64,000 bases of DNA from Pseudomonas sp. GM78 (GTDB taxonomy: Bacteria; Pseudomonadota; Gammaproteobacteria; Pseudomonadales; Pseudomonadaceae). Every line of letters begins with the position of its first letter. The first letter of the stretch is position 1. The notes under the pieces were generated by a model, which saw nothing but the letters and a program-made list of their open reading frames with translations, did no database searches and was not told the DNA's origin. The position numbers and the translations under genes were made by a program. Positions 5,546 through 17,974 of this stretch are shown here, piece by piece. Where the stretch lies: NCBI RefSeq assembly GCF_000282475.1, contig NZ_AKJF01000095.1:1-64000 (forward strand), written 5' to 3'.

Positions 5546-5681
5546 GGGTCAGCGCATGCATCAAGATTCGCAATGCCCCCGCCACCACGCCCAACGCCAC
5601 CACACTGCCCAGCCAGATCAACACCAGCCAACCAACGCGCTTGTACCAAGGCGCTGGTTGATGCTTATCAATGGTAGCCAT
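5541..5681 (-). CDS. DUF2474 small membrane protein (CIO-associated)
   Basis: A 46-residue protein with one membrane span (about residues 17-40: GWLVLIWLGSVVALGVVAGA). It begins with MATIDKHQPAPWYKRVGW. The ATG at 5681 overlaps the cioB 3' end by 14 bp, so it is the last gene of that operon. Proteins of this size and shape follow cydB/cioB genes in many Pseudomonas genomes (DUF2474; functionally compared with CydX/YbgT). An accessory role in oxidase assembly or stability is inference. Confidence 0.85.
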   Translation of the reverse strand: MATIDKHQPAPWYKRVGWLVLIWLGSVVALGVVAGALRILMHALTL

Positions 5682-6684
5682 CGCCAATCCTCACTTTGCC
5701 GCGGAAAACGTAATAGCTCCAGACCGTGTACATCAAGATGATCGGCAGGATGAACAGCGCCCCGATCAGGATGAACAACTGGCTGGTCGCCGGTGAAGCC
5801 GCTGCCCACAGGCTGATGGACGGCGGCACGATGTTCGGCCAGATGCTGAAGGCCAGGCCGATGTAGCCGAGGAACACCAGCATCAGGGTGAACGCGAATG
5901 GCCAGTGGGTGTGACGTTGACGCAGGGTCTTGAGCAGCCCGAACAGCACCAGCAAGGCCAGCACCGCCAAGCTGCCGAACACCGCCAGGTGCGCATGGCC
6001 GAACCAGCGCGTGGCGATTTCCGGGTGCAGGATCGGCGTCCATACACAGATCACTCCGATCACCGCCAGCAACAGCCAGGCCAGGGGCCGGGTGAACAGG
6101 CGCATCCGCGACTCCAGCATGCCTTCGGTCTTGACCAGCAACCAGGTGCTGCCAAGCAACGCGTAAGCGACGATCAGACCGACACCGCAGAACAGTGGAA
6201 ACGGCGCCAGCCATTCCCAGCTACCACCGGCGAACTGCCGGCCGACCACCGGGATGCCGGCAATGTAAGTGCCTATCACCACGCCCTGGGAGAACGTCGC
6301 CAACAGCGAACCACCGATGAACGCCATGTCCCAGATGTGGCGTTTCTCAGGGCTGGCCTTGAAGCGAAACTCGAAGGCCACTCCGCGGAAGATCAAGCCG
6401 CATAACATCAGGATCAACGGCAGGTACAACGCTTCCAAAATCACCGAATAGGCCAGCGGGAACGCGCCATACAGCGCCGCGCCACCCAGTACCAGCCAGG
6501 TCTCGTTGCCGTCCCACACCGGTGCGACGGTGTTCATCATCACATCGCGTTCCCTGGCATCCGGGATCAGTGGAAACAGAATGCCCAGTCCCAGGTCGAA
6601 GCCGTCCATGATCACGTACATCATCACGCCGAAAGCGATGATCACGCCCCAGATCAGCGATAAGTCGATACCTTGAATACCCAT
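5668..6684 (-). CDS. cioB: Cyanide-insensitive (bd-type) quinol oxidase subunit II
   Basis: A 338-residue polytopic membrane protein of the CydB family. It forms the terminal quinol oxidase with subunit I and reduces O2 to water at the inner membrane. YVIMDGFDLGLGIL near the N terminus and VWDGNETWLVLGGAALYGAFP at about 57-77 are family signatures. The ATG at 6684 is preceded by GGGGAG eight bases upstream; the longer reading would need a TTG. It lies 16 nt downstream of cioA. Confidence 0.93.
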   Translation of the reverse strand: MGIQGIDLSLIWGVIIAFGVMMYVIMDGFDLGLGILFPLIPDARERDVMMNTVAPVWDGNETWLVLGGAALYGAFPLAYSVILEALYLPLILMLCGLIFRGVAFEFRFKASPEKRHIWDMAFIGGSLLATFSQGVVIGTYIAGIPVVGRQFAGGSWEWLAPFPLFCGVGLIVAYALLGSTWLLVKTEGMLESRMRLFTRPLAWLLLAVIGVICVWTPILHPEIATRWFGHAHLAVFGSLAVLALLVLFGLLKTLRQRHTHWPFAFTLMLVFLGYIGLAFSIWPNIVPPSISLWAAASPATSQLFILIGALFILPIILMYTVWSYYVFRGKVRIGDGYH

Positions 6685-6700
6685 GTTCAACTCCCCTATT

Positions 6701-8122
6701 TCAATGGACGCGAGCGTCGGTTTCGAGGACTTCGGCGTCGGCCGATAGCGGACGGCGCGGCGTAATCACCTGATCGGAATGACCCGCCGGCAAATGCTCG
6801 TGATGGGATTTTGGCCCTTTGGCCACCAGCTTCATCATGTAGCCCATGCCCACCGTGAACACCGAGAAATAGATCACCACGAACAGCGCCAAGGAGATGC
6901 TCAACTGCGTGACGCTGTGATTGGACGCAGCATTCGCGGTTCTTTGCAGGCCATATACCACCCACGGTTGGCGCCCCACTTCGGTGTTGACCCAACCCGC
7001 CAGCATCGCGATCAGGCCGCTCGGCCCCATCCACAACATCAGGCGCAGGAACCAGCGATTGCGATAAATCGCACCGCTGCGACGCAGCGCCAGGCCCAGC
7101 ACACCGGCCAGCACCATCAACATGCCCAGTCCGGCCATGACGCGAAAGCTCCAGAAGATGATCGTTGCATTGGGCCGATCCTCTTTCGGGAAGCTCTTGA
7201 GCGCCGGGATCTGCTTGTCGAGGCTGTGGGTCAGGATCAGGCTGCCCAGGTAGGGAATCTCGATGGCGTACCGGGTTTTCTCGGCCTGCATGTCGGGGAT
7301 GCCGAACAGCACCAATGGCGTTGCTACGCTACCGTTGTTTTCCCAGTGTCCTTCGATGGCAGCGATTTTCGCCGGTTGATGTTCCAGGGTGTTCAAGCCG
7401 TGGGCATCACCCACCACCGTCTGGATCGGACAGACAATCAGCGCCATCCACAACGCCATCGACAGCATCTTGCGCACTTGCTTCGTGTCGTTGCCGCGCA
7501 GCAGATGCCACGCCGCCGAGGCGCCGACAAAGAACGCGGTGGCGACGAACGCCGCAATCGCCATGTGCGCCAGGCGGTACGGGAACGACGGGTTGAACAC
7601 GATCGCCAGCCAATCCAGCGGCATGACCCGACCATCAACGATCTCGAAACCTTGTGGTGTCTGCATCCAGCTGTTGGACGCGAGAATCCAGAAGGTCGAA
7701 ATCAAGGTGCCGATGGCAACCATGATCGTCGAGAAGAAGTGCAAACCGCGCCCTACCCGGTTCCAGCCAAACAACATGACCCCCAGGAATCCGGCTTCAA
7801 GGAAGAACGCGGTGAGCACTTCATAGGTCAGCAACGGCCCGGTGATACTGCCGGCGAAGTCGGAGAAACGGCTCCAGTTGGTGCCGAACTCGTAGGCCAT
7901 GACCAGCCCCGAAACCACACCCATGCCGAAGTTGACCGCGAAGATCTTCGACCAGAAATGGTAGAGATCACGGTAGGTGTCGTTGTGGGTCTTCAGCCAA
8001 AGCCCTTCGAGCACCGCCAGGAAACTGGCCAGCCCGATGGTGATGGCGGGAAAGATGATGTGGAACGAAACCGTGAACGCGAATTGCATCCGCGCCAGGT
8101 CCAGTGCCTCAAGATTAAACAT
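6701..8122 (-). CDS. cioA: Cyanide-insensitive (bd-type) quinol oxidase subunit I
   Basis: A 473-residue CydA-family subunit. His21 in SFHIIFP corresponds to a conserved heme ligand position, a further conserved His lies in RLAHMAI, and the GRQPW quinol-site motif is present near residue 390. The loop before GRQPW is short, as in cyanide-insensitive CioA proteins rather than the long-Q-loop E. coli CydA. The start at 8122 is supported by GAGGA eight bases upstream. It begins only 44 nt after the molybdopterin oxidoreductase gene, with no obvious terminator between, so both may share a transcript. Confidence 0.93.
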   Translation of the reverse strand: MFNLEALDLARMQFAFTVSFHIIFPAITIGLASFLAVLEGLWLKTHNDTYRDLYHFWSKIFAVNFGMGVVSGLVMAYEFGTNWSRFSDFAGSITGPLLTYEVLTAFFLEAGFLGVMLFGWNRVGRGLHFFSTIMVAIGTLISTFWILASNSWMQTPQGFEIVDGRVMPLDWLAIVFNPSFPYRLAHMAIAAFVATAFFVGASAAWHLLRGNDTKQVRKMLSMALWMALIVCPIQTVVGDAHGLNTLEHQPAKIAAIEGHWENNGSVATPLVLFGIPDMQAEKTRYAIEIPYLGSLILTHSLDKQIPALKSFPKEDRPNATIIFWSFRVMAGLGMLMVLAGVLGLALRRSGAIYRNRWFLRLMLWMGPSGLIAMLAGWVNTEVGRQPWVVYGLQRTANAASNHSVTQLSISLALFVVIYFSVFTVGMGYMMKLVAKGPKSHHEHLPAGHSDQVITPRRPLSADAEVLETDARVH

Positions 8123-8166: not shown

Positions 8167-10491
<2,325 letters not shown>

Positions 10492-10559: not shown

Positions 10560-10626
10560 AGCATAGGAATACGGGTTTAATATTGTCTAATCGCTATTAA
10601 TGACCACATTATCGAAGATATCTATC
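10560..10626 (-). promoter_or_regulatory. Predicted LysR-box promoter of the YdeP-like/cio operon
   Basis: On the minus strand: GATAGATATCTTCGATAA (10626-10609) fits a T-N11-A LysR box with arms ATAGA and TCGAT. GATTAGACA (10592-10584) starts 34 nt after the start of the box and contains a -35-like TTAGAC. TATGCT (10565-10560) follows with a 19-bp spacer as a possible -10. The same arrangement recurs at four other genes in this window. Confidence 0.7.
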
Positions 10627-10697
10627 AAGGTGTTTTATCCTTAAAATACAGTGACTTATTAATCTTAGTAGCATGATCTGCGGGAAAATTAATTCAT

Positions 10698-10763
10698 CAT
10701 AGAGCCGCTCGATCAACCGGTCATAAATAGTGATTGGACGGTCTCGCAAGTTGCACTTAGCCT
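10698..10763 (+). promoter_or_regulatory. Predicted LysR-box promoter of moaA
   Basis: CATAGAGCCGCTCGATCA (10698-10715) keeps the ATAGA-N5-TCGAT core. GATTGGACG (10732-10740) starts exactly 34 nt after the box start and contains TTGGAC as -35. TAGCCT (10758-10763) lies 18 bp further on as a possible -10. The stretch from GATTGGACG to TAGCCTG has the same spacing and shares AAGTT with the fdhD promoter. Confidence 0.7.
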
Positions 10764-10798
10764 GCGCTCAACAACTGTAGGCGCCAAGCGAGGATGTC

Positions 10799-11797
10799 AT
10801 GTCGGAACGAGTCTTGATCGATGGGTTCTCCCGGCGCGTGGATTATCTGCGGATGTCGGTCACCGACCGCTGCGATTTCCGTTGCGTGTATTGCATGGCC
10901 GAGGACATGCAGTTCCTGCCGCGTCAACGGGTGTTGACCCTGGAAGAGATCTATCAGGTGGCTGAGCGCTTCGTCGCACTGGGTACGCGCAAGATTCGCC
11001 TGACCGGGGGCGAGCCGCTGATCCGCCCAGGCGTGGTGCAGCTGTGCCAGAAGATCGCCGCCCTGCCCGGCCTGCGCGAGCTGTGCATGACCACCAATGG
11101 CTCGCAGTTGGCCAGGCTTGCCGAGCCGTTGTTCGAGGCCGGGGTCAAGCGCCTCAACATCAGTCTCGACTGCCTGGACCCGCAACGCTTTCGCGAGCTG
11201 ACCCGCACCGGCGATCTGGCACAGGTGATCAAGGGCATCGACGCCGCCAACCAGGCCGGGTTTCGCAACACCAAGCTCAACTGCGTGGTGATGAAGGGCC
11301 GCAACGATCACGAGATAAACGATCTGGTGAGCTTCGCCATCGACCGCAACCTCGACATTTCCTTCATCGAAGAAATGCCCTTGGGCACCATCGATGAACA
11401 CAGCCGTGCCGAGTCGTTTTATTCCAGCGCCCAGGTTCGTGAGCGGATCGCCGAGCGCTACACTTTGATTGATTCCGCCGAGTCGACCCAAGGCCCTTCG
11501 CGGTACTGGCGTCTGGCTGAAGCGCCGCACATTCGCCTGGGGTTCATTTCGCCCCACAGCCACAATTTCTGCGGCACTTGCAATCGGGTGCGGCTGACGG
11601 TGGAAGGTCGCCTGCTGCTGTGCCTGGGAAACGAGCATTGCGTTGATCTCAAGGCCGTGTTGCGCAGCCACCCCGGACAGCCAGAGCGTCTGGAGAAAGC
11701 CATCATCGAGGCGATGAAACTCAAGCCCTATCGGCACAATTTCCAAGTGAACGACGATGTCCAGGTCGTTCGTTTCATGAACATGACGGGCGGCTGA
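10799..11797 (+). CDS. moaA: GTP 3',8-cyclase MoaA (molybdenum cofactor step 1)
   Basis: A 332-residue radical SAM enzyme. With MoaC it turns GTP into cyclic pyranopterin monophosphate. The N-terminal cluster motif is C25-X3-C29-X2-C32 ([12 protein letters not shown]). The C-terminal cluster is C258-X2-C261-X13-C275 ([11 protein letters not shown] to LLC). The protein ends in the conserved Gly-Gly that reaches into the active site. The ATG follows GAGGATG. The bestrophin-like gene starts 6 nt downstream, so the two form an operon. Confidence 0.97.
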
Positions 11798-11803
11798 AAA
11801 ACC

Positions 11804-12703
11804 ATGATCGTCAGACCCAAACCCAATCTGATCGGCGTGCTGACTTCGCTCAAGGGCTCGATCGCTAAACGCATTGCCCTGCGCAGCCTGTTAGTGACGC
11901 TGCTCGCTTCTGCCATCGTACTGATCGAAACATTGCACCCGAGCTACTTCTCAAAGGTCAGCGCAACGCCGTTCACCCTGCTCGGTCTGTCGCTGTCGAT
12001 CTTCATGAGTTTTCGCAACAACGCCTGCTATGACCGCTGGTATGAGGCGCGCAAGGCATGGGGCGATGTGATCGTGGAAATCCGCTCGATGATTCGCGAA
12101 ACCCAGATCATCAAGGACGCGCCTGAGCGGCACACAATCCTGAGCAACCTCTGTGGCTTCGCCCATGCGCTCAATGCACGCCTGCGCAAGGAAAACGAAC
12201 TGGCCGACAGTGGCGACTGGCTGCAACCGATGCCCAAGGGAAATACGACCGATGTGAGCGGGCAGATTCTGCTGCAGGTCGGTCAACAGTGCTCGGCGCT
12301 CAATGAGTCAGGTGTGATCAGCGAATGGCGCTACACGATCATGGCCAACCATCTGTCCAGCCTGACCCGTTCTCAAGCGGTCTGTGAACGGATCAAGAAC
12401 ACCCCGCTGCCGTTCCCCTACACCTTGTTACTGCACCGGACCATCTACCTGTTCTGCATCCTGTTGCCGTTCGCCATGGCCGAACCCCTGGGCTGGCTGA
12501 CACCGATCTTCACCGCAATTGTCAGCTACACCTTTTTCGGCCTGGATGCGATTGCCGACGAACTGGAAGACCCCTTCGGCCGCGACGAAAACGACCTGCC
12601 CACCGACGCCATCGTGCGCAACATCGAGCGCGATGTCCTGGCGGCGCTGGGCGTGACGGAACTGCCACCACAGCTGGAGCCGGTGGATTTCGTGCTGAAT
12701 TGA
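11804..12703 (+). CDS. Bestrophin-family (UPF0187/YneE-like) membrane protein
   Basis: A 299-residue protein of the bacterial bestrophin-like family. The pattern SLKGSIAKRIA, then a hydrophobic segment (about 27-45), then SIFMSFRNNACYDRWYEARKAWG (about 66-88) is characteristic. A second hydrophobic pair lies at about 205-245, followed by FGLDAIADELEDPFGRDENDLP. Characterised members form pentameric anion or cation channels in the inner membrane. It follows moaA by 6 nt. A link to molybdate or another anion is possible but unproven. Confidence 0.85.
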   Translation: MIVRPKPNLIGVLTSLKGSIAKRIALRSLLVTLLASAIVLIETLHPSYFSKVSATPFTLLGLSLSIFMSFRNNACYDRWYEARKAWGDVIVEIRSMIRETQIIKDAPERHTILSNLCGFAHALNARLRKENELADSGDWLQPMPKGNTTDVSGQILLQVGQQCSALNESGVISEWRYTIMANHLSSLTRSQAVCERIKNTPLPFPYTLLLHRTIYLFCILLPFAMAEPLGWLTPIFTAIVSYTFFGLDAIADELEDPFGRDENDLPTDAIVRNIERDVLAALGVTELPPQLEPVDFVLN

Positions 12704-12770
12704 TTGATTCCGGGCGGCGTTCCGACGATGGCGGCAGGTCAGTCAATAACCATGCCGCATGTGCCGGCCT

Positions 12771-12796
12771 CTTCGCGAGCAAGCTCGCTCCCACAG
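12771..12796. repeat. Single REP element
   Basis: One 26-bp copy reading CTTCGCGAGCAAGCTCGCTC then CCACAG, between the convergent bestrophin-like gene and moeA. No inverted partner lies within about 100 bp. It contains a short internal palindrome (GCGAGCAAGCTCGC) that could fold. Confidence 0.8.
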
Positions 12797-12811
12797 GGGG
12801 TTACCGTTGGT

Positions 12812-14017
12812 TCAGAACAATTCGTTGAACGGGATGAATCGTGCCGTATCGCCCTCTTCCAATGTGCGACCCTGCGCAACCTCCACTAACCCATCCGCCC
12901 AGCAAGCGCCCAGCAGCACACCTGAACTCTGGTTTGGATAAAGCACAGCGCGACCCGCCTCCAGCTTGGCCCGCAGGTATTCCCGGCGGCTTCCCGGTTT
13001 CGGCCAGGCAAAACCGACAGTGACCGCAAAGCTCAAGGGCTCGACATCTTCGACACCTTGAATCCGCAACAGATAAGGCCTGGCCAACAAGCCAAACGTC
13101 ACCAGTGCCGAAGCTGGATTACCCGGCAAGCCAATCACGGGCACGCTACCAAAATGGCCCACGGTCAGCGGTTTGCCGGGTTTGATCGAGAGTTTCCAGA
13201 GCAGTGGTTTACCGCATTCACGCAACACCTGGCCAAGGCAATCGGCCTCACCTGCGGATACGCCGCCAGTGGAGAGAATCAGGTCTGCAGCTTGCTGCAA
13301 TTGTTCGAGCTTGAGCCGCGTCTGCCGAAGCTCGTCGGGAAGAATGCCGATATCAATGACATCGCAACCCAATGCGCTCAACCAGTGACTCAACAAGGTG
13401 CGGTTACTGTTGTAGATGCTGCCGGGTTTGAGCGGCGCGCCTGGTTCGACCAGCTCATCCCCGGTGGACAGCAACGCCACCCGTGGTCGTCGCACCACCT
13501 GCACATGGGTGCAGCCCTGCGCCGCCGCGACCGCCAGTTCGAACGGCCCGAGACGCTTGCCGGCCTGCAACAACACATCCCCGGCGTGGTTCTCCTGGCC
13601 TTGCGGGCGGATATTGCAGCCCAGGCTCAGCGGCTGATTGAAGCTCACGCGGCCGTCATCCAGTACTTGCGTGTTTTCCTGCATCTCTACGCAGTTCGCG
13701 CCTGGCGGTACGGGGGAGCCGGTGAAGATTCGTGCGCAGGTACCCGCTGCTAATGCTTCGGGGGCGTGCCCGGCAAATACCTGCTGCGACACGGGCAACG
13801 GCTGGCCGTCCCAACCGTCTAGATTCAAGGCATAACCGTCCATGGCGCTGTTCGGCCAGGGCGGCAGGTCCAGGATCGCCAGCAAATCGTTGGCCAACAC
13901 CCGTTGCCGTGCCGCGCTCAACGGCACTGCTTCGCTTTCCTGCAGCCGTTGCGTCTCTGCCATCGCCAGTAAACGGCGGATGGCCTCTTCCATCGGCATC
14001 AACGCAGAGCTGCTCAT
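12812..14017 (-). CDS. moeA: Molybdopterin molybdenumtransferase MoeA
   Basis: A 401-residue cytoplasmic enzyme that inserts molybdate into adenylylated molybdopterin. Family signatures are [13 protein letters not shown] at about 51-63, [13 protein letters not shown] at about 94-106, the nucleotide-fold segment [12 protein letters not shown] with KPGSIYNSN, and [23 protein letters not shown] and [11 protein letters not shown] in the C-terminal half. The start at 14017 is set by the ATGA overlap with moaB; longer in-frame readings run through moaB in a different frame. Confidence 0.95.
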
Positions 14018-14553
14018 CCCCGCGTCCCACAGGCTTGCACCGGTTTGAGGTGCGGGACGAAATTGCACGGCCGATGCCGCGCATCCAGTTGCTCGGCGAG
14101 GATACCTTCCCACGCGGTACGACAGGCGCCCGTGGACCCCGGCAGGCAGCAGACCAGCGTGCCATTGGCCAACCCGGCCAAGGCCCGGCTCTGCACCGTG
14201 GAGGTGCCAATGTCGAGGATAGAGATCGCACGAAACAGTTCGCCAAAGCCATCGATCTGCTTGTCCAGCAAACAAGCCACTGCCTCGGGTGTGCTGTCAC
14301 GCCCGGTAAAGCCGGTGCCGCCGGTAATCAGCACCACCTGAATGTTGTCATCGGCAATCCAGGTCGCCACCTGCGCACGGATCTTGTACAGATCGTCCTT
14401 GAGCAGGTTGCGCTCGCTCAGGGTATGCCCGGCTTCCAGCAGGCGGCTGACCAGCAGTTGCCCGGAGGTGTCATTGGCATATTCACGGGTATCGCTGACG
14501 GTAAGCACAGCAATATTCAGGGGTATAAACAATGCATCTTGCTTAACGCTCAT
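14014..14553 (-). CDS. moaB: Molybdenum cofactor biosynthesis protein MoaB (molybdopterin adenylyltransferase family)
   Basis: A 179-residue MoaB/Mog-fold protein. [15 protein letters not shown] (about 17-31), [20 protein letters not shown] (about 73-92) and [18 protein letters not shown] match the family. In organisms with several MPT adenylyltransferase-like proteins it may adenylylate molybdopterin or be redundant with MogA. It is the first gene of a moaB-moeA operon and is divergent from the LysR regulator. Confidence 0.93.
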
Positions 14554-14590
14554 GTCATTCTCCGACAGATATAAATTAAATAACTTTCAG

Positions 14591-14657
14591 AGACTAAAGC
14601 GCTGGAACAAGCACTGTCTAATCACTCTAACCAACCAAGTTATCGAGCGTATCTATC
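14591..14657 (-). promoter_or_regulatory. Predicted LysR-box promoter of moaB-moeA
   Basis: On the minus strand: GATAGATACGCTCGATAA (14657-14640), then GATTAGACA (14623-14615) starting 34 nt after the box start, with TTAGAC as -35, and TAGTCT (14596-14591) as a possible -10 after a 19-bp spacer. The box differs from that of the YdeP-like gene at only three of 18 positions. Confidence 0.72.
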
Positions 14658-14695
14658 GGCATTTAGTTTGAATAATCGAAAATAAGCTGACTACC

Positions 14696-14738
14696 GATAG
14701 ATCGGGTTGATGATGTCTTAAAAACAGCTGATTGGACG
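14696..14738 (+). promoter_or_regulatory. Predicted LysR-box element upstream of the LysR gene (autoregulation)
   Basis: GATAGATCGGGTTGATGA (14696-14713) followed at the fixed 34-nt distance by GATTGGACG (14730-14738). The right arm is weaker (TTGAT for TCGAT), and I see no convincing -10 hexamer 17-19 bp after TTGGAC. The element sits back-to-back with the moaB box, as expected for a self-regulating LysR gene with a divergent target. Confidence 0.6.
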
Positions 14739-14848
14739 CCCGCCCGGGACAATGAGATCGTCCACGGCCAACGTTATCGCGCATACCTTGTGTCTTGCGC
14801 GCTTGAGTCAATACTTACCCTTCATTTCCTCCGTCAGCAGGTGCCGTC

Positions 14849-15739
14849 ATGGACATCAAACAACTCAAGTTCCTGATCGCCCTGGAGCAGACCCGTCACT
14901 TCGGCCAGGCCGCCGCGCGTTGCCACATCACCCAGCCGACCCTGTCGATGCGCCTGCGCAACCTTGAGGATGAACTGGACCTGGTGCTGGTCACCCGTGG
15001 GCAGCGCTTCGAAGGCTTTACCCAGGCGGGTGAACGCGTACTGGCGTGGGCCCGGACCCTGTTGGCCGCCCATGACGGCCTGTTCGCCGAAGCCGCTGCC
15101 TGCCGTGGCCAATTGGTCGGTAACTTGCGACTGGGCCTGGTGCCGCTCAGCAGCTTCAACCCGGTCAGCTACATTCAGGGGCTTTCACGCAGCTTTCCCG
15201 AGCTCAAGTACAGCCTGTCCTCGTTGAGCTCCGACCAAATCATCGAGGGGCTTGGCAATAACCAGCTGGACCTGGGCGTGTGTTACCTCGATCACGTCAA
15301 CCCGAGCTATTTCGAGTTTTTCGAGATCGGCGAAACCCGGGTCGGCCTGCTGTACGACACCCGTCACTTCCATTTCGAAGGCATGCATATGAGCTGGGAA
15401 GACGCCGCCGAGTTGCCGCTGGGCATGCTCAGCAACGGCATGCACTATCGAAAATCCATCGACCTGAGTTTCCGCAGCCGCGGGCTCGACCCGCAGCCGA
15501 TCCTGGAAAGCGATTCGACTTACCAGCTGCTGCAGGCGATCCACGAAGGTTTTTGCTGCGCGATCATGCCCCTCGATAGCGGCCTGGAAGCGCCAATCGA
15601 ATACCTGTCCTTCATCAATTTGCCCGATGCCAGCGTGCTTGCACCGTTGGGTTTGGTCATGCGCAAGACCGAACCGCGCTCTGCAATTGCCGAGAAGTGT
15701 TTCGCTGAAGCGCGGCAGTTATTTACCGCAAAAATCTGA
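14849..15739 (+). CDS. LysR-type transcriptional regulator of the Mo-cofactor cluster
   Basis: A 296-residue LysR-family regulator. The N-terminal winged helix-turn-helix (about 1-60: MDIKQLKFLIALEQ, HITQPTLSMRLRNLEDEL) is followed by a periplasmic-binding-like sensor domain (about 90-290). It lies among molybdenum cofactor genes, divergent from moaB and upstream of fdhD. Five copies of a LysR-type T-N11-A box lie in this neighbourhood, including in front of this gene, so it is the prime candidate for binding them. The ligand is not evident from the sequence. Confidence 0.9.
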   Translation: MDIKQLKFLIALEQTRHFGQAAARCHITQPTLSMRLRNLEDELDLVLVTRGQRFEGFTQAGERVLAWARTLLAAHDGLFAEAAACRGQLVGNLRLGLVPLSSFNPVSYIQGLSRSFPELKYSLSSLSSDQIIEGLGNNQLDLGVCYLDHVNPSYFEFFEIGETRVGLLYDTRHFHFEGMHMSWEDAAELPLGMLSNGMHYRKSIDLSFRSRGLDPQPILESDSTYQLLQAIHEGFCCAIMPLDSGLEAPIEYLSFINLPDASVLAPLGLVMRKTEPRSAIAEKCFAEARQLFTAKI

Positions 15740-15786
15740 GTCTTTAATTTGATATAAAATCCGAATTAAACAACTTCGACCTTAAC

Positions 15787-15852
15787 GATAGACATCACCA
15801 ATCACTGCATCGGAACTAGCGATTGGACGCACTGAAAAGTTACCCGTAGCCT
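15787..15852 (+). promoter_or_regulatory. Predicted LysR-box promoter of fdhD-moaCDE
   Basis: GATAGACATCACCAATCA (15787-15804) with GATTGGACG (15821-15829) starting 34 nt after the box start. TTGGAC (15823-15828) and TAGCCT (15847-15852) are spaced by 18 bp, exactly as at moaA. The right arm of the box (CCAAT for TCGAT) is the most diverged of the five. Confidence 0.65.
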
Positions 15853-15883: not shown

Positions 15884-16711
15884 ATGTTGTGCAAAGTTCA
15901 GAAAATCATTGATCGAAGCGATACCAATGCTCCTGCGCCAACGCCGTTGAGTGTGAACTTTCGTGAGTACGACGGCGGCGCAGCCATCGCTCAAGCGGCG
16001 CTGGCGTCCGAGATTGCCCTGGCGATCACCTACAACGGCTTGAGCCAGGCAGTGATGATGGTCTCGCCCGGCAACCTCGAAGATTTCATCCGTGGTTTCA
16101 GCGTCAGCAACGACATCGTGCAAGACCAGAGTGAAATCTACGACATCCACCTCACCCACTTTGACCAGGCCGTCCAAGCGGATGTGCAGATTTGCAGTCG
16201 CGCGTTCTGGGCGCTGAAAGATCATCGCCGGCAAATGACCGGTACCAGTGGCTGCGGACTTTGCGGGGTTGAGGCGCTGGAACAGGCATTGCCGCAACTG
16301 CAGATTCTCGACCCGGTGAGACTGCCTGCGGCCGAACATCTCATCGGTATCCGCGATCGTATCGAACAGGCGCAGCAGATGGCCCGTAGTAGCGGCGCAT
16401 TGCATGCGGCGTTGTATTTCGACACACAAGGCGAGGCGCTGATCTGCCGTGAAGACATCGGCCGGCACAACGCGCTGGATAAATTGATCGGTGCCCTGCA
16501 GCACGTCGGCATCAACAGCCGTCGCGGCTTCACCGTGGTCACCAGTCGTTGCAGCCTGGAACTGATCCACAAAGCCGTCAGGGCCAGACTCGGCACGCTG
16601 GTCAGCCTGTCCGCGCCTACGGCCCTGACCGTGCAATGGGCGATCAAACATCGCCTCAACCTGATTCACGTGCCGCACCGTAACGCTCCACGAATTTACA
16701 GCCCGGCATGA
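15884..16711 (+). CDS. fdhD: FdhD sulfur carrier for formate dehydrogenase-type enzymes
   Basis: A 275-residue FdhD protein. It passes sulfur from the cysteine desulfurase IscS to the molybdenum cofactor of formate dehydrogenases, which is needed for activity. The catalytic pair C124 and C127 lies in TGTSGCGLCGVE, and REDIGRHNALDKLIG and SRCSLELIHKA are further signatures. First gene of fdhD-moaC-moaD-moaE. Its presence supports a bis-MGD enzyme of formate dehydrogenase type as a client, possibly the YdeP-like protein in this window. Confidence 0.95.
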   Translation: MLCKVQKIIDRSDTNAPAPTPLSVNFREYDGGAAIAQAALASEIALAITYNGLSQAVMMVSPGNLEDFIRGFSVSNDIVQDQSEIYDIHLTHFDQAVQADVQICSRAFWALKDHRRQMTGTSGCGLCGVEALEQALPQLQILDPVRLPAAEHLIGIRDRIEQAQQMARSSGALHAALYFDTQGEALICREDIGRHNALDKLIGALQHVGINSRRGFTVVTSRCSLELIHKAVRARLGTLVSLSAPTALTVQWAIKHRLNLIHVPHRNAPRIYSPA

Positions 16712-16754: not shown

Positions 16755-17261
16755 ATGACAGTCTGTTCAGATTCATCCCCCAACGGCTTGACCCACCTCG
16801 ATAGCCAGGGCCGCGCCAACATGGTCGATGTCAGCGACAAAAGCTCGACCCAGCGCGAGGCTCAGGCACAAGCCTGGGTGCGCATGCGCCCGCAAACCCT
16901 GAAGTTGATCCAGAGCGACGGCCACCCCAAGGGCGATGTGTTCGCCGTGGCACGGATCGCCGGAATCATGGCCGCAAAGAAAACCCACGAACTGATCCCG
17001 CTGTGCCACACCTTGTTGCTCAGTTCGATCCACGTCGAACTGAAGGCCTGCGCACCGGACAGCGTAAAAATCGTCGGCACCTGTCGCGTCGAGGGCCAGA
17101 CCGGTGTGGAGCTGGAAGCGCTGACCGCTGTCAGTGTCGCCGCGCTGACCCTCTACGACATGTGCAAGGCGGTGGACCGCGGCATGGTCATCGACGACGT
17201 CCGCCTGCTCAGCAAACAAGGTGGTCGCTCGGGCCACTTTACATTCGAGGATGCACAATGA
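16755..17261 (+). CDS. moaC: Cyclic pyranopterin monophosphate synthase MoaC
   Basis: A 168-residue MoaC. It acts after MoaA to form cyclic pyranopterin monophosphate. Conserved features are ANMVDVSDK near the N terminus, the [20 protein letters not shown] region with catalytic lysines, [16 protein letters not shown]-type [21 protein letters not shown], and a C terminus with KQGGRSG. The gene lies 43 nt after fdhD and overlaps moaD by ATGA. Confidence 0.96.
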
Positions 17262-17509
17262 TCCTGATCAATTACTTCGCCCGCTATCGCGAGCAGCTCA
17301 ACCTGGGTGGGGAAAAATTGCCCCTTACCACCAGCCTCAAGACCATCGAAGACGTCCGTCAGATGCTGATGGCCCGCGGTGAAATCTGGAACAGCGTACT
17401 GGGCGAAAGCAACCTGATGTGCGCGCTTAACCAGGAGCTCTGCCACCTGAACCTGGCGATCGAGGACTTTGATGAAATCGCCTTTTTCCCGCCGGTCACC
17501 GGAGGCTGA
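17258..17509 (+). CDS. moaD: Molybdopterin synthase sulfur carrier subunit MoaD
   Basis: An 83-residue ubiquitin-fold protein ending in the required Gly-Gly (PPVTGG). When thiocarboxylated it donates sulfur to precursor Z in the MoaD2-MoaE2 complex. The start at 17258 is set by the ATGA overlap with moaC; the longer in-frame reading lies inside moaC. The gene is followed 3 nt later by moaE. Confidence 0.95.
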
Positions 17510-17512
17510 AGC

Positions 17513-17974
17513 ATGACGGTTCGAGTCCAGTACAAAACGTTCGACACCGGCCAACTGATCGACAGGCTGCGGGCAAACGATCCCGGCGTCGGCGCCGTGG
17601 TCAACTTCGTTGGCTATGTGCGTGATATCAATCAGGGCGAGGAAGTGACCAGTCTGTTTCTTGAACACTACCCTGGCATGACCGAGCGCTCGCTGCAAAA
17701 GATCATCGACAACGCCAAGACGCGATGGCCGCTCAAGGCCGTGGAGATCGTGCACCGGATCGGCCAACTGTCGGTCAGTGACCCGATCGTGTTTGTCGGT
17801 GTGAGCAGCCAGCATCGTCAAGCCGCCTTCGATGCCTGCGCGTTCATCATGGACTACCTGAAAACCGACGCAGCATTCTGGAAACGCGAAGATGTGGCCT
17901 CTCGCGCACGTTGGGTCGATGCCCGTGACAGCGACCGATCCGCGGCAGGACGCTGGGAAACCGTGTCACAATAA
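17513..17974 (+). CDS. moaE: Molybdopterin synthase catalytic subunit MoaE
   Basis: A 153-residue catalytic subunit of molybdopterin synthase. GAVVNFVGYVRD, LEHYPGMTE, HRIG, VGVSSQHRQAAFDACAFIMDYLKTDAAFWKRE contain the conserved active-site Arg, His and Lys residues. Last certain gene of the fdhD-moaCDE unit. Confidence 0.96.
   Translation: MTVRVQYKTFDTGQLIDRLRANDPGVGAVVNFVGYVRDINQGEEVTSLFLEHYPGMTERSLQKIIDNAKTRWPLKAVEIVHRIGQLSVSDPIVFVGVSSQHRQAAFDACAFIMDYLKTDAAFWKREDVASRARWVDARDSDRSAAGRWETVSQ

Follow-up and report, generated by a model that had tools for sequence, protein, structure and literature searches.

A recurrent element around the molybdenum cofactor genes

The window analysed here, a stretch of 64,000 nucleotides from Pseudomonas sp. 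GM78 (contig NZ_AKJF01000095.1, C95 below), carries the genes cioB-cioA-ydeP (minus strand), moaA-bestrophin (plus), moeA-moaB (minus), lysR (plus) and fdhD-moaC-moaD-moaE (plus) in this order, and a 43-bp element stands before ydeP, moaA, moaB, lysR and fdhD (Table 1). The initial annotation had named the genes behind these five elements as a YdeP-like molybdoenzyme, moaA, moaB-moeA, a LysR gene and fdhD-moaCDE, and family models support most of these names. The element belongs to a real LysR-type regulon; the function best supported for it is to oxidise and tolerate formate, together with cofactor supply. The sites, their geometry and conservation, their co-occurrence with the regulator and the nature of the target genes were all established by computation.

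A search of the window with the pattern first proposed, GATAGA-N5-TCGATNA-N16-GATTRGACR, at up to three mismatches recovered all five elements at the places named for them and no sixth, and 100 shuffles gave no match under the same conditions. Across the 7.3-Mb genome the pattern matched six times, at the five window sites and at C76:5598-5640 (minus strand), and its reversed form did not match at all. The sixth site lies between a second lysR, whose product is 64% identical to the window LysR, and a second fdhD-ydeP pair. A profile, R1, was built from 52 43-mers (20 sites from genus genomes and 32 from named loci) with the -10 region excluded; eight of the 60 43-mers picked, mainly those of divergent lysR promoters, were excluded from the underlying alignment A1 and from R1. 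This profile also gave six genome-wide matches with E < 1e-3, the next best having an E of 0.45, and the proposed check against the genomic background was thus passed.

The constant offset of 34 nt between the start of the dyad and the GATTRGACR box is real and was recovered on a larger scale. When dyads (at most two mismatches) and boxes (at most one) were paired over 80 named loci, 240 pairs fell at offset 34 against 28 at the next commonest, with 125 pairs summed over the 159 remaining offsets tested. The description of the five starts as unlinked had to be dropped, all of them lying within 5.3 kb and four forming two divergent pairs.

Architecture of the element

In a first count of 208 sites from named loci, three features stood out: the dyad GATMGA-N5-TCKATC, a T at position 23 (0-based) and the GATTRGACR box from position 34. 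The 18-bp form GATAGA-N5-TCGATNA initially given for the upstream element is better written as this 17-bp dyad. Read with the rule for LysR-type regulators, the element holds two T-N11-A boxes, T2-N11-A14 and T23-N11-A35, placed 21 bp (two helical turns) apart; the inverted repeat had been recognised before, and the second box, downstream of it, is an addition of the present work. Among 373 distinct sites from the collected loci (plasmid records excluded), T2 and A14 are present in all, partly by selection of the sites, and T23, a position left free in the search, is equally present in 373 of 373. Marked positions are conserved across sites and spacer positions vary. The dyads are mostly heterotypic, combining a GATAGA-type and a GATCGA-type half-site in either order (288 sites), with 29 made of two like half-sites and 56 with other letters, kinship being ignored in these counts.

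The sequence downstream of the box supports a promoter reading. A TAnnnT motif, which was part of no search, follows the box at 17 nt in 209 sites and at 18 nt in 103 (312 of 373 together, neither in 61), and none of the other offsets between 0 and 24 has it in more than six sites. By gene, it is at the expected place in 43 of 43 sites before ydeP, 46 of 47 before moaA, 51 of 51 before moaB, 18 of 18 before fdhD and 5 of 49 before lysR. Because TAnnnT is then 17-18 bp away, TRGACR (compare TTGACA) was preferred as the -35 hexamer and TTRGAC, the initial choice, was set aside. The associated estimate of a dyad centre near -64 holds: if the elements are read as promoters with start points placed from the -10, the position of TAnnnT in the 312 sites would put it there. 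An interrupted T-N11-A dyad as recognition site near -65, followed by an activation site near the -35, is the layout of operators of LysR-type transcriptional regulators (LTTRs), and it is the layout found here. A promoter scanner reported TAGACA-18-TATGCT before ydeP as one of two hits against 3.8 in shuffles, which carries little weight alone. Behind the lysR element (window positions 14739-14848), many relatives show a ACAATGAGATCGTC-like stretch in place of TAnnnT.

Conservation and co-occurrence with the regulator

Conservation in orthologous promoters, by which the prediction was to be judged, was examined as the presence of the initial element at four mismatches or fewer within 300 nt upstream. 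The site was found before ydeP in 46 of 47 loci, moaA in 54 of 56, moaB in 60 of 60 and fdhD in 23 of 30, and the check was passed. Control genes were nearly devoid of it over the same distance (moeA 0/49, chrA-like 0/27, cioA 0/36, bestrophin 2/52 and moaC 2/36); a site directly before cioA was sought in Pseudomonas and found in none of the 36 loci. In 99 genus genomes, the initial pattern matched 227 times and its reversed form twice. Among individual cases, G059 has ten site matches, G045 has two odd matches of the initial pattern and locus L056 shows a second, more distant ydeP-moaA-bestrophin group alongside the usual one.

The LysR (E <= 1e-60) occurs in one or more copies in 94 of these 99 genomes, the best matches in G034, G076 and G080 being partial. 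The untrained initial pattern occurs in 92 of the 94 (it misses G037 and G043) and in none of the five without LysR; R1 gives 94 of 94 and 0 of 5 (Fisher 1.4e-8, kinship ignored), a presence that is partly built in by its training on 20 sites from these genomes. Four of the five genomes without LysR (G013, G028, G060, G069 and G082) also have no member of the YdeP family TIGR01701, so that the whole system is missing, and G013, which kept fdhD-ydeP, has no site there. In a draw of 99 genomes from the family, three of them common to the genus draw (LysR at E <= 1e-50, site at E <= 1e-3), the site was found in 52 of 56 LysR-bearing genomes and in none of the 43 others. Beyond the family, a class sample of 369 genomes contained one outside genome with LysR at E <= 1e-60 (G339), and a site of 28.2 bits precedes its ydeP. 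Co-occurrence also holds where sites and lysR are on different contigs. Since the DNA-binding domains of the two GM78 paralogues (window and C76) are almost identical, both proteins may share sites.

Genes preceded by the site

Downstream genes were read in 49 chosen loci, giving 52 distinct sites; two of these loci, both from G013, had been chosen for the absence of LysR and neither has a site. Fifty-one sites precede bestrophin (20, the commonest target), moaA (10), fdhD (10), a FocA-type channel (5), ydeP (4), moaB (1) or lysR (1), and the 52nd is at a contig end. The FocA-type channel belongs to the formate/nitrite transporters (PF01226, 271.5 bits) and is followed by moaA in L122. Many genomes of these loci have a single LysR of this kind.

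A variant site ending GATTAGTC was seen before an FdnG/FdoG-type formate dehydrogenase in five of five genomes examined. This family was then sampled at 30 TIGR01553 places out of at least 56, by scanning the upstream 600 nt and leaving two positions of the box free; scanning the same 30 loci whole with R1 returned the same six positives. All six belong to the nine genes of Cys type (no in-frame TGA), and none of the 21 of Sec type (in-frame TGA) has a site, which defines two regulation classes within one enzyme family. The copy of GM78 itself (C60) is of the TGA type and R1 found no site on that contig; likewise, no site was found at the second moaA of this genome or at a more distant YdeP in G085 (46-48%). 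At two mismatches or fewer, the variant pattern matches in 36 of 99 genomes, mostly at ordinary sites, and its weaker hits include a few in G015, G056, G083 and G094. In G057, where the order ydeP, moaA, bestrophin, moaB, lysR is P. putida-like, sites stand at ydeP, moaA, moaB and fdhD-ydeP, and none at the Sec-type fdoG.

Targets across relatives thus comprise formate enzymes, cofactor supply and transport, as in a formate-dehydrogenase regulon. The initial proposal of a dedicated molybdenum cofactor regulon is too narrow, and a regulon of cofactor genes alone is rejected, by the sites before ydeP, fdhD-ydeP, bestrophin, the FocA-type channel and Cys-type fdnG/fdoG. The part that the cofactor genes seem to play is that of a supply arm in such a regulon.

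The regulator and its distant relatives

The window LysR has both LTTR domains above cut-off (N-terminal HTH_1, PF00126, 54.9 bits; C-terminal LysR_substrate, PF03466, 92.6 bits), and its nearest named relatives are from Pseudomonas sp. GM49 and GM48, P. laurylsulfatiphila and P. jessenii (96-97%). OxyR and CynR are among the nearest named models; their target genes differ, and membership in either was rejected (87.2 bits against an equivalog cut-off of 329 for OxyR, 105.7 against 277 for CynR). The best structural matches in the Protein Data Bank are OxyR chains, and OxyR sites carry ATAG-type tetramers. All 29 aligned homologues, one of which is 45% identical to the window protein, keep C236-C237 (in GxCCxxMPL) and R201 unchanged, and these may be sensor residues.

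Relatives of 49-59% were found in a Klebsiella record (bestrophin, ydeP, lysR), on the Salmonella plasmid p58011 and in a Proteus record (lysR, ydeP, cioA); a search of phage records found no relative of this LysR at 1e-30. In Proteus, a perfect dyad lies between the divergent ydeP and cioA, the whole site scoring 15.3 bits; the Salmonella plasmid has a weaker match before cioA (11.5 bits) and Klebsiella partial matches only. This suggests at most that cioAB is part of the regulon in some lineages. On the plasmid p58011 (IncHI2A, CP049309.1, L305), cioAB and ydeP accompany the lysR relative, and a gene annotated for tellurium resistance lies a few kilobases away; the plasmid carries a mobile form of the module. 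No site was among the matches listed for a Photobacterium locus, and an Azospirillum locus gave weak partial matches only. On the Azospirillum lipoferum plasmid AZO_p3 (L308), a 34%-identical relative lies beside fdhF and near hydrogenase-4 genes, a neighbourhood that may point to an earlier association of this branch of LysR proteins with formate. A P. veronii plasmid (LT599585.1, L309) shows a ydeP-like region in pieces among transposase genes.

Features of the window

The cioA-like gene starts 44 nt downstream of ydeP and the two are possibly co-transcribed; in all 35 loci that contain both, cioA lies behind ydeP on the same strand, and in 33 of them the distance is within 150 nt. Downstream of moaE lies a chromate-transporter family gene (PF02417, 18044-19402), and 27 of 27 orthologues have no site within 300 nt.

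Table 1. Genes and promoter elements of the window, with mismatches of each 43-bp element to the initial pattern
Feature	Position	Strand	Details
cioB-like quinol oxidase subunit II	5668..6690	minus	named from sequence and position
cioA-like quinol oxidase subunit I	6701..8122	minus	75% identical to gene annotated cytochrome ubiquinol oxidase subunit I
FdhF/YdeP-family molybdoenzyme (ydeP)	8167..10491	minus	TIGR01701, 945.3 bits, cut-off 582.15
ydeP promoter (putative)	10560..10626	minus	dyad 10626-10610; second T-N11-A box 10603-10591; -35 TAGACA 10589-10584; -10 TATGCT 10565-10560; element 10626-10584, 0 mismatches
moaA promoter (putative)	10698..10763	plus	dyad 10698-10714; second box 10721-10733; -35 TGGACG 10735-10740; -10 TAGCCT 10758-10763; element 10698-10740, 1 mismatch
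moaA	10799..11797	plus	TIGR02666, above cut-off
Bestrophin-family channel	11804..12703	plus	PF25539; behind moaA
moeA	12812..14017	minus	PRK10680 as best model at 344.7 bits, short of its cut-off of 440; 4-nt overlap with moaB
moaB	14014..14553	minus	TIGR02667, above cut-off
moaB promoter (putative)	14591..14657	minus	dyad 14657-14641; second box 14634-14622; -35 TAGACA 14620-14615; -10 TAGTCT 14596-14591; element 14657-14615, 0 mismatches
lysR promoter element (putative)	14696..14738	plus	dyad 14696-14712; second box 14719-14731; -35-like TGGACG 14733-14738; no clear -10; element 14696-14738, 1 mismatch
LysR-type regulator	14849..15739	plus	Pfam HTH_1 and LysR_substrate; proposed binder of the sites
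fdhD promoter (putative)	15787..15852	plus	dyad 15787-15803; second box 15810-15822; -35 TGGACG 15824-15829; -10 TAGCCT 15847-15852; element 15787-15829, 2 mismatches
fdhD, formate dehydrogenase sulfurtransferase	15884..16711	plus	TIGR00129, above cut-off
moaC, moaD, moaE	16755..17974	plus	behind fdhD; moaC and moaE by models, moaD by sequence and position

Discussion

The results of this work point to a LysR protein, so far uncharacterised, that probably controls formate handling in these bacteria, and we hold it quite likely that it is a formate-responsive activator of a formate-dehydrogenase and tolerance regulon. The elements would be operators of the LysR encoded at 14849 and of its C76 core paralogue. 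The regulator is expected to occupy the dyad at about -64 as recognition site and the second T-N11-A box at about -43 as activation site, the last half-site of which abuts the -35 hexamer TRGACR. In response to formate or a close C1 metabolite, the bound protein, presumably as an oligomer, would activate sigma-70 promoters of three sorts: those of the enzymes (fdhD-ydeP, and ydeP with cioAB if these form an operon), those of molybdenum cofactor supply (moaA, moaB-moeA, fdhD-moaCDE), and those of the associated channels and probably of lysR itself.

The formate response published for P. putida EM42 speaks in favour of this model. Formate raises PP_4596 and PP_0256 (FdhF/YdeP), PP_0257 (fdhD), moaA PP_4597 (log2 2.4) and moaB-II PP_4600 (log2 4.3), and cioAB is named among the most differentially expressed genes, no direction being stated (PMC10308882). 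Deletion of PP_0256-0257 severely lowers formate tolerance, which a plasmid copy restores, and according to the authors fdoGHI-fdhE shows no significant expression (PMC10308882). The same gene families as in our loci are thus formate-induced, and the site pattern of G057, including its site-less Sec-type fdoG, is in line with this response. The main text of that report does not contain the word LysR and, as far as it goes, names neither regulator nor site; our analysis adds candidates for both and a wider gene list. From the gene numbering, the regulators would be PP_4601 and PP_0258. Another LysR, PP_4156, has been suggested to act in formate toxicity (PMC12421819). The regulator and site described here appear undescribed: no regulator or site for these genes was found in the literature searched, a search outside of which stand the HT-SELEX (high-throughput systematic evolution of ligands by exponential enrichment) atlas motif tables (PMC8041468, PMC7532196), which may hold an orthologue motif.

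Several observations weigh against a regulon of this kind. The site is upstream of lysR in only 55 of 80 loci, and 44 of 49 distinct lysR-promoter sites show no TAnnnT at the expected place. Three of the nine Cys-type fdnG/fdoG loci have no site. In the family draw, four of the 56 LysR-bearing genomes fell below the site threshold; their weaker or unlisted lysR-adjacent sites (17-20 bits in G134, G156 and G188, two mismatches in G111) were seen only on a direct look, an effort not given to the 43 LysR-less genomes. The co-occurrence counts also ignore descent, even if genera g1, g5, g10 and g15 each include genomes of either state. Finally, formate induces the ped cluster and pntAB as well, which are not among the sites seen here (PMC10308882).

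The nature of the signal is where an alternative deserves most attention. The same LysR regulon could respond to formaldehyde, to another electrophile or the redox state through C236-C237, or to cofactor demand, which we regard as rather unlikely, even though the two cysteines are invariant among the aligned homologues, cofactor genes account for a large share of the window regulon and FdhD activity is induced by sublethal formaldehyde (other work cited in PMC10308882). Against such signals, the genes targeted in the various species comprise formate dehydrogenases and a channel of the formate/nitrite type, and formate induces the P. putida counterparts, a result that leaves room for its conversion products (PMC10308882); the second moaA of the genome, moreover, is devoid of the site. 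That the regulator is instead a repressor released by its signal seems improbable: in favour of it, the second box touches the -35, but the boxes lie upstream of the -35 and not across the -10 or the start point, and LysR boxes so placed fit activation. We give still less credit to another transcription factor binding the sites with LysR as a mere genetic neighbour. Other activators could also use an element that borders on the -35, but two T-N11-A boxes, one at -64 and one at -43, form the pattern of the LysR family, the sites accompany LysR even from other contigs, and they are missing where G013 has fdhD-ydeP without it. That the likeness arose by chance, or from a single promoter copied together with its genes, as the divergent pairs could suggest if they stem from one duplicated region, is hardly credible, because shuffles are empty, spacers vary around conserved positions and unrelated gene families share the site.

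Activation by formate remains the reading that we favour. FdsR is a LysR-type regulator that sits with formate dehydrogenase genes. The FdsR system of Cupriavidus necator is likewise formate-inducible (4.5-fold, Km 130 uM), one test showing no significant induction of the promoter by formate (PMC7057948), and was compared here by description rather than by sequence or site. More speculatively, and at a level of confidence that stays tentative, a genus-wide LysR formate sensor distinct from FdsR could run a whole formate-defence circuit. Such a circuit would comprise several classes of formate dehydrogenase (the selenocysteine one excepted), a molybdenum cofactor supply of its own, channels for formate or anions and, as an outlet for electrons, a cyanide-insensitive quinol oxidase; the invariant pair of vicinal cysteines would belong to the sensor, and a form of the module would also travel on an enterobacterial plasmid.

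To conclude, this work puts forward both a candidate regulator and its operator for the formate-tolerance dehydrogenases of P. putida, which were reported without one, and makes the question of the signal directly testable. Besides, it provides a candidate formate-responsive promoter for C1 engineering, and it offers a reason for the presence of a second moaA in the GM78 genome.

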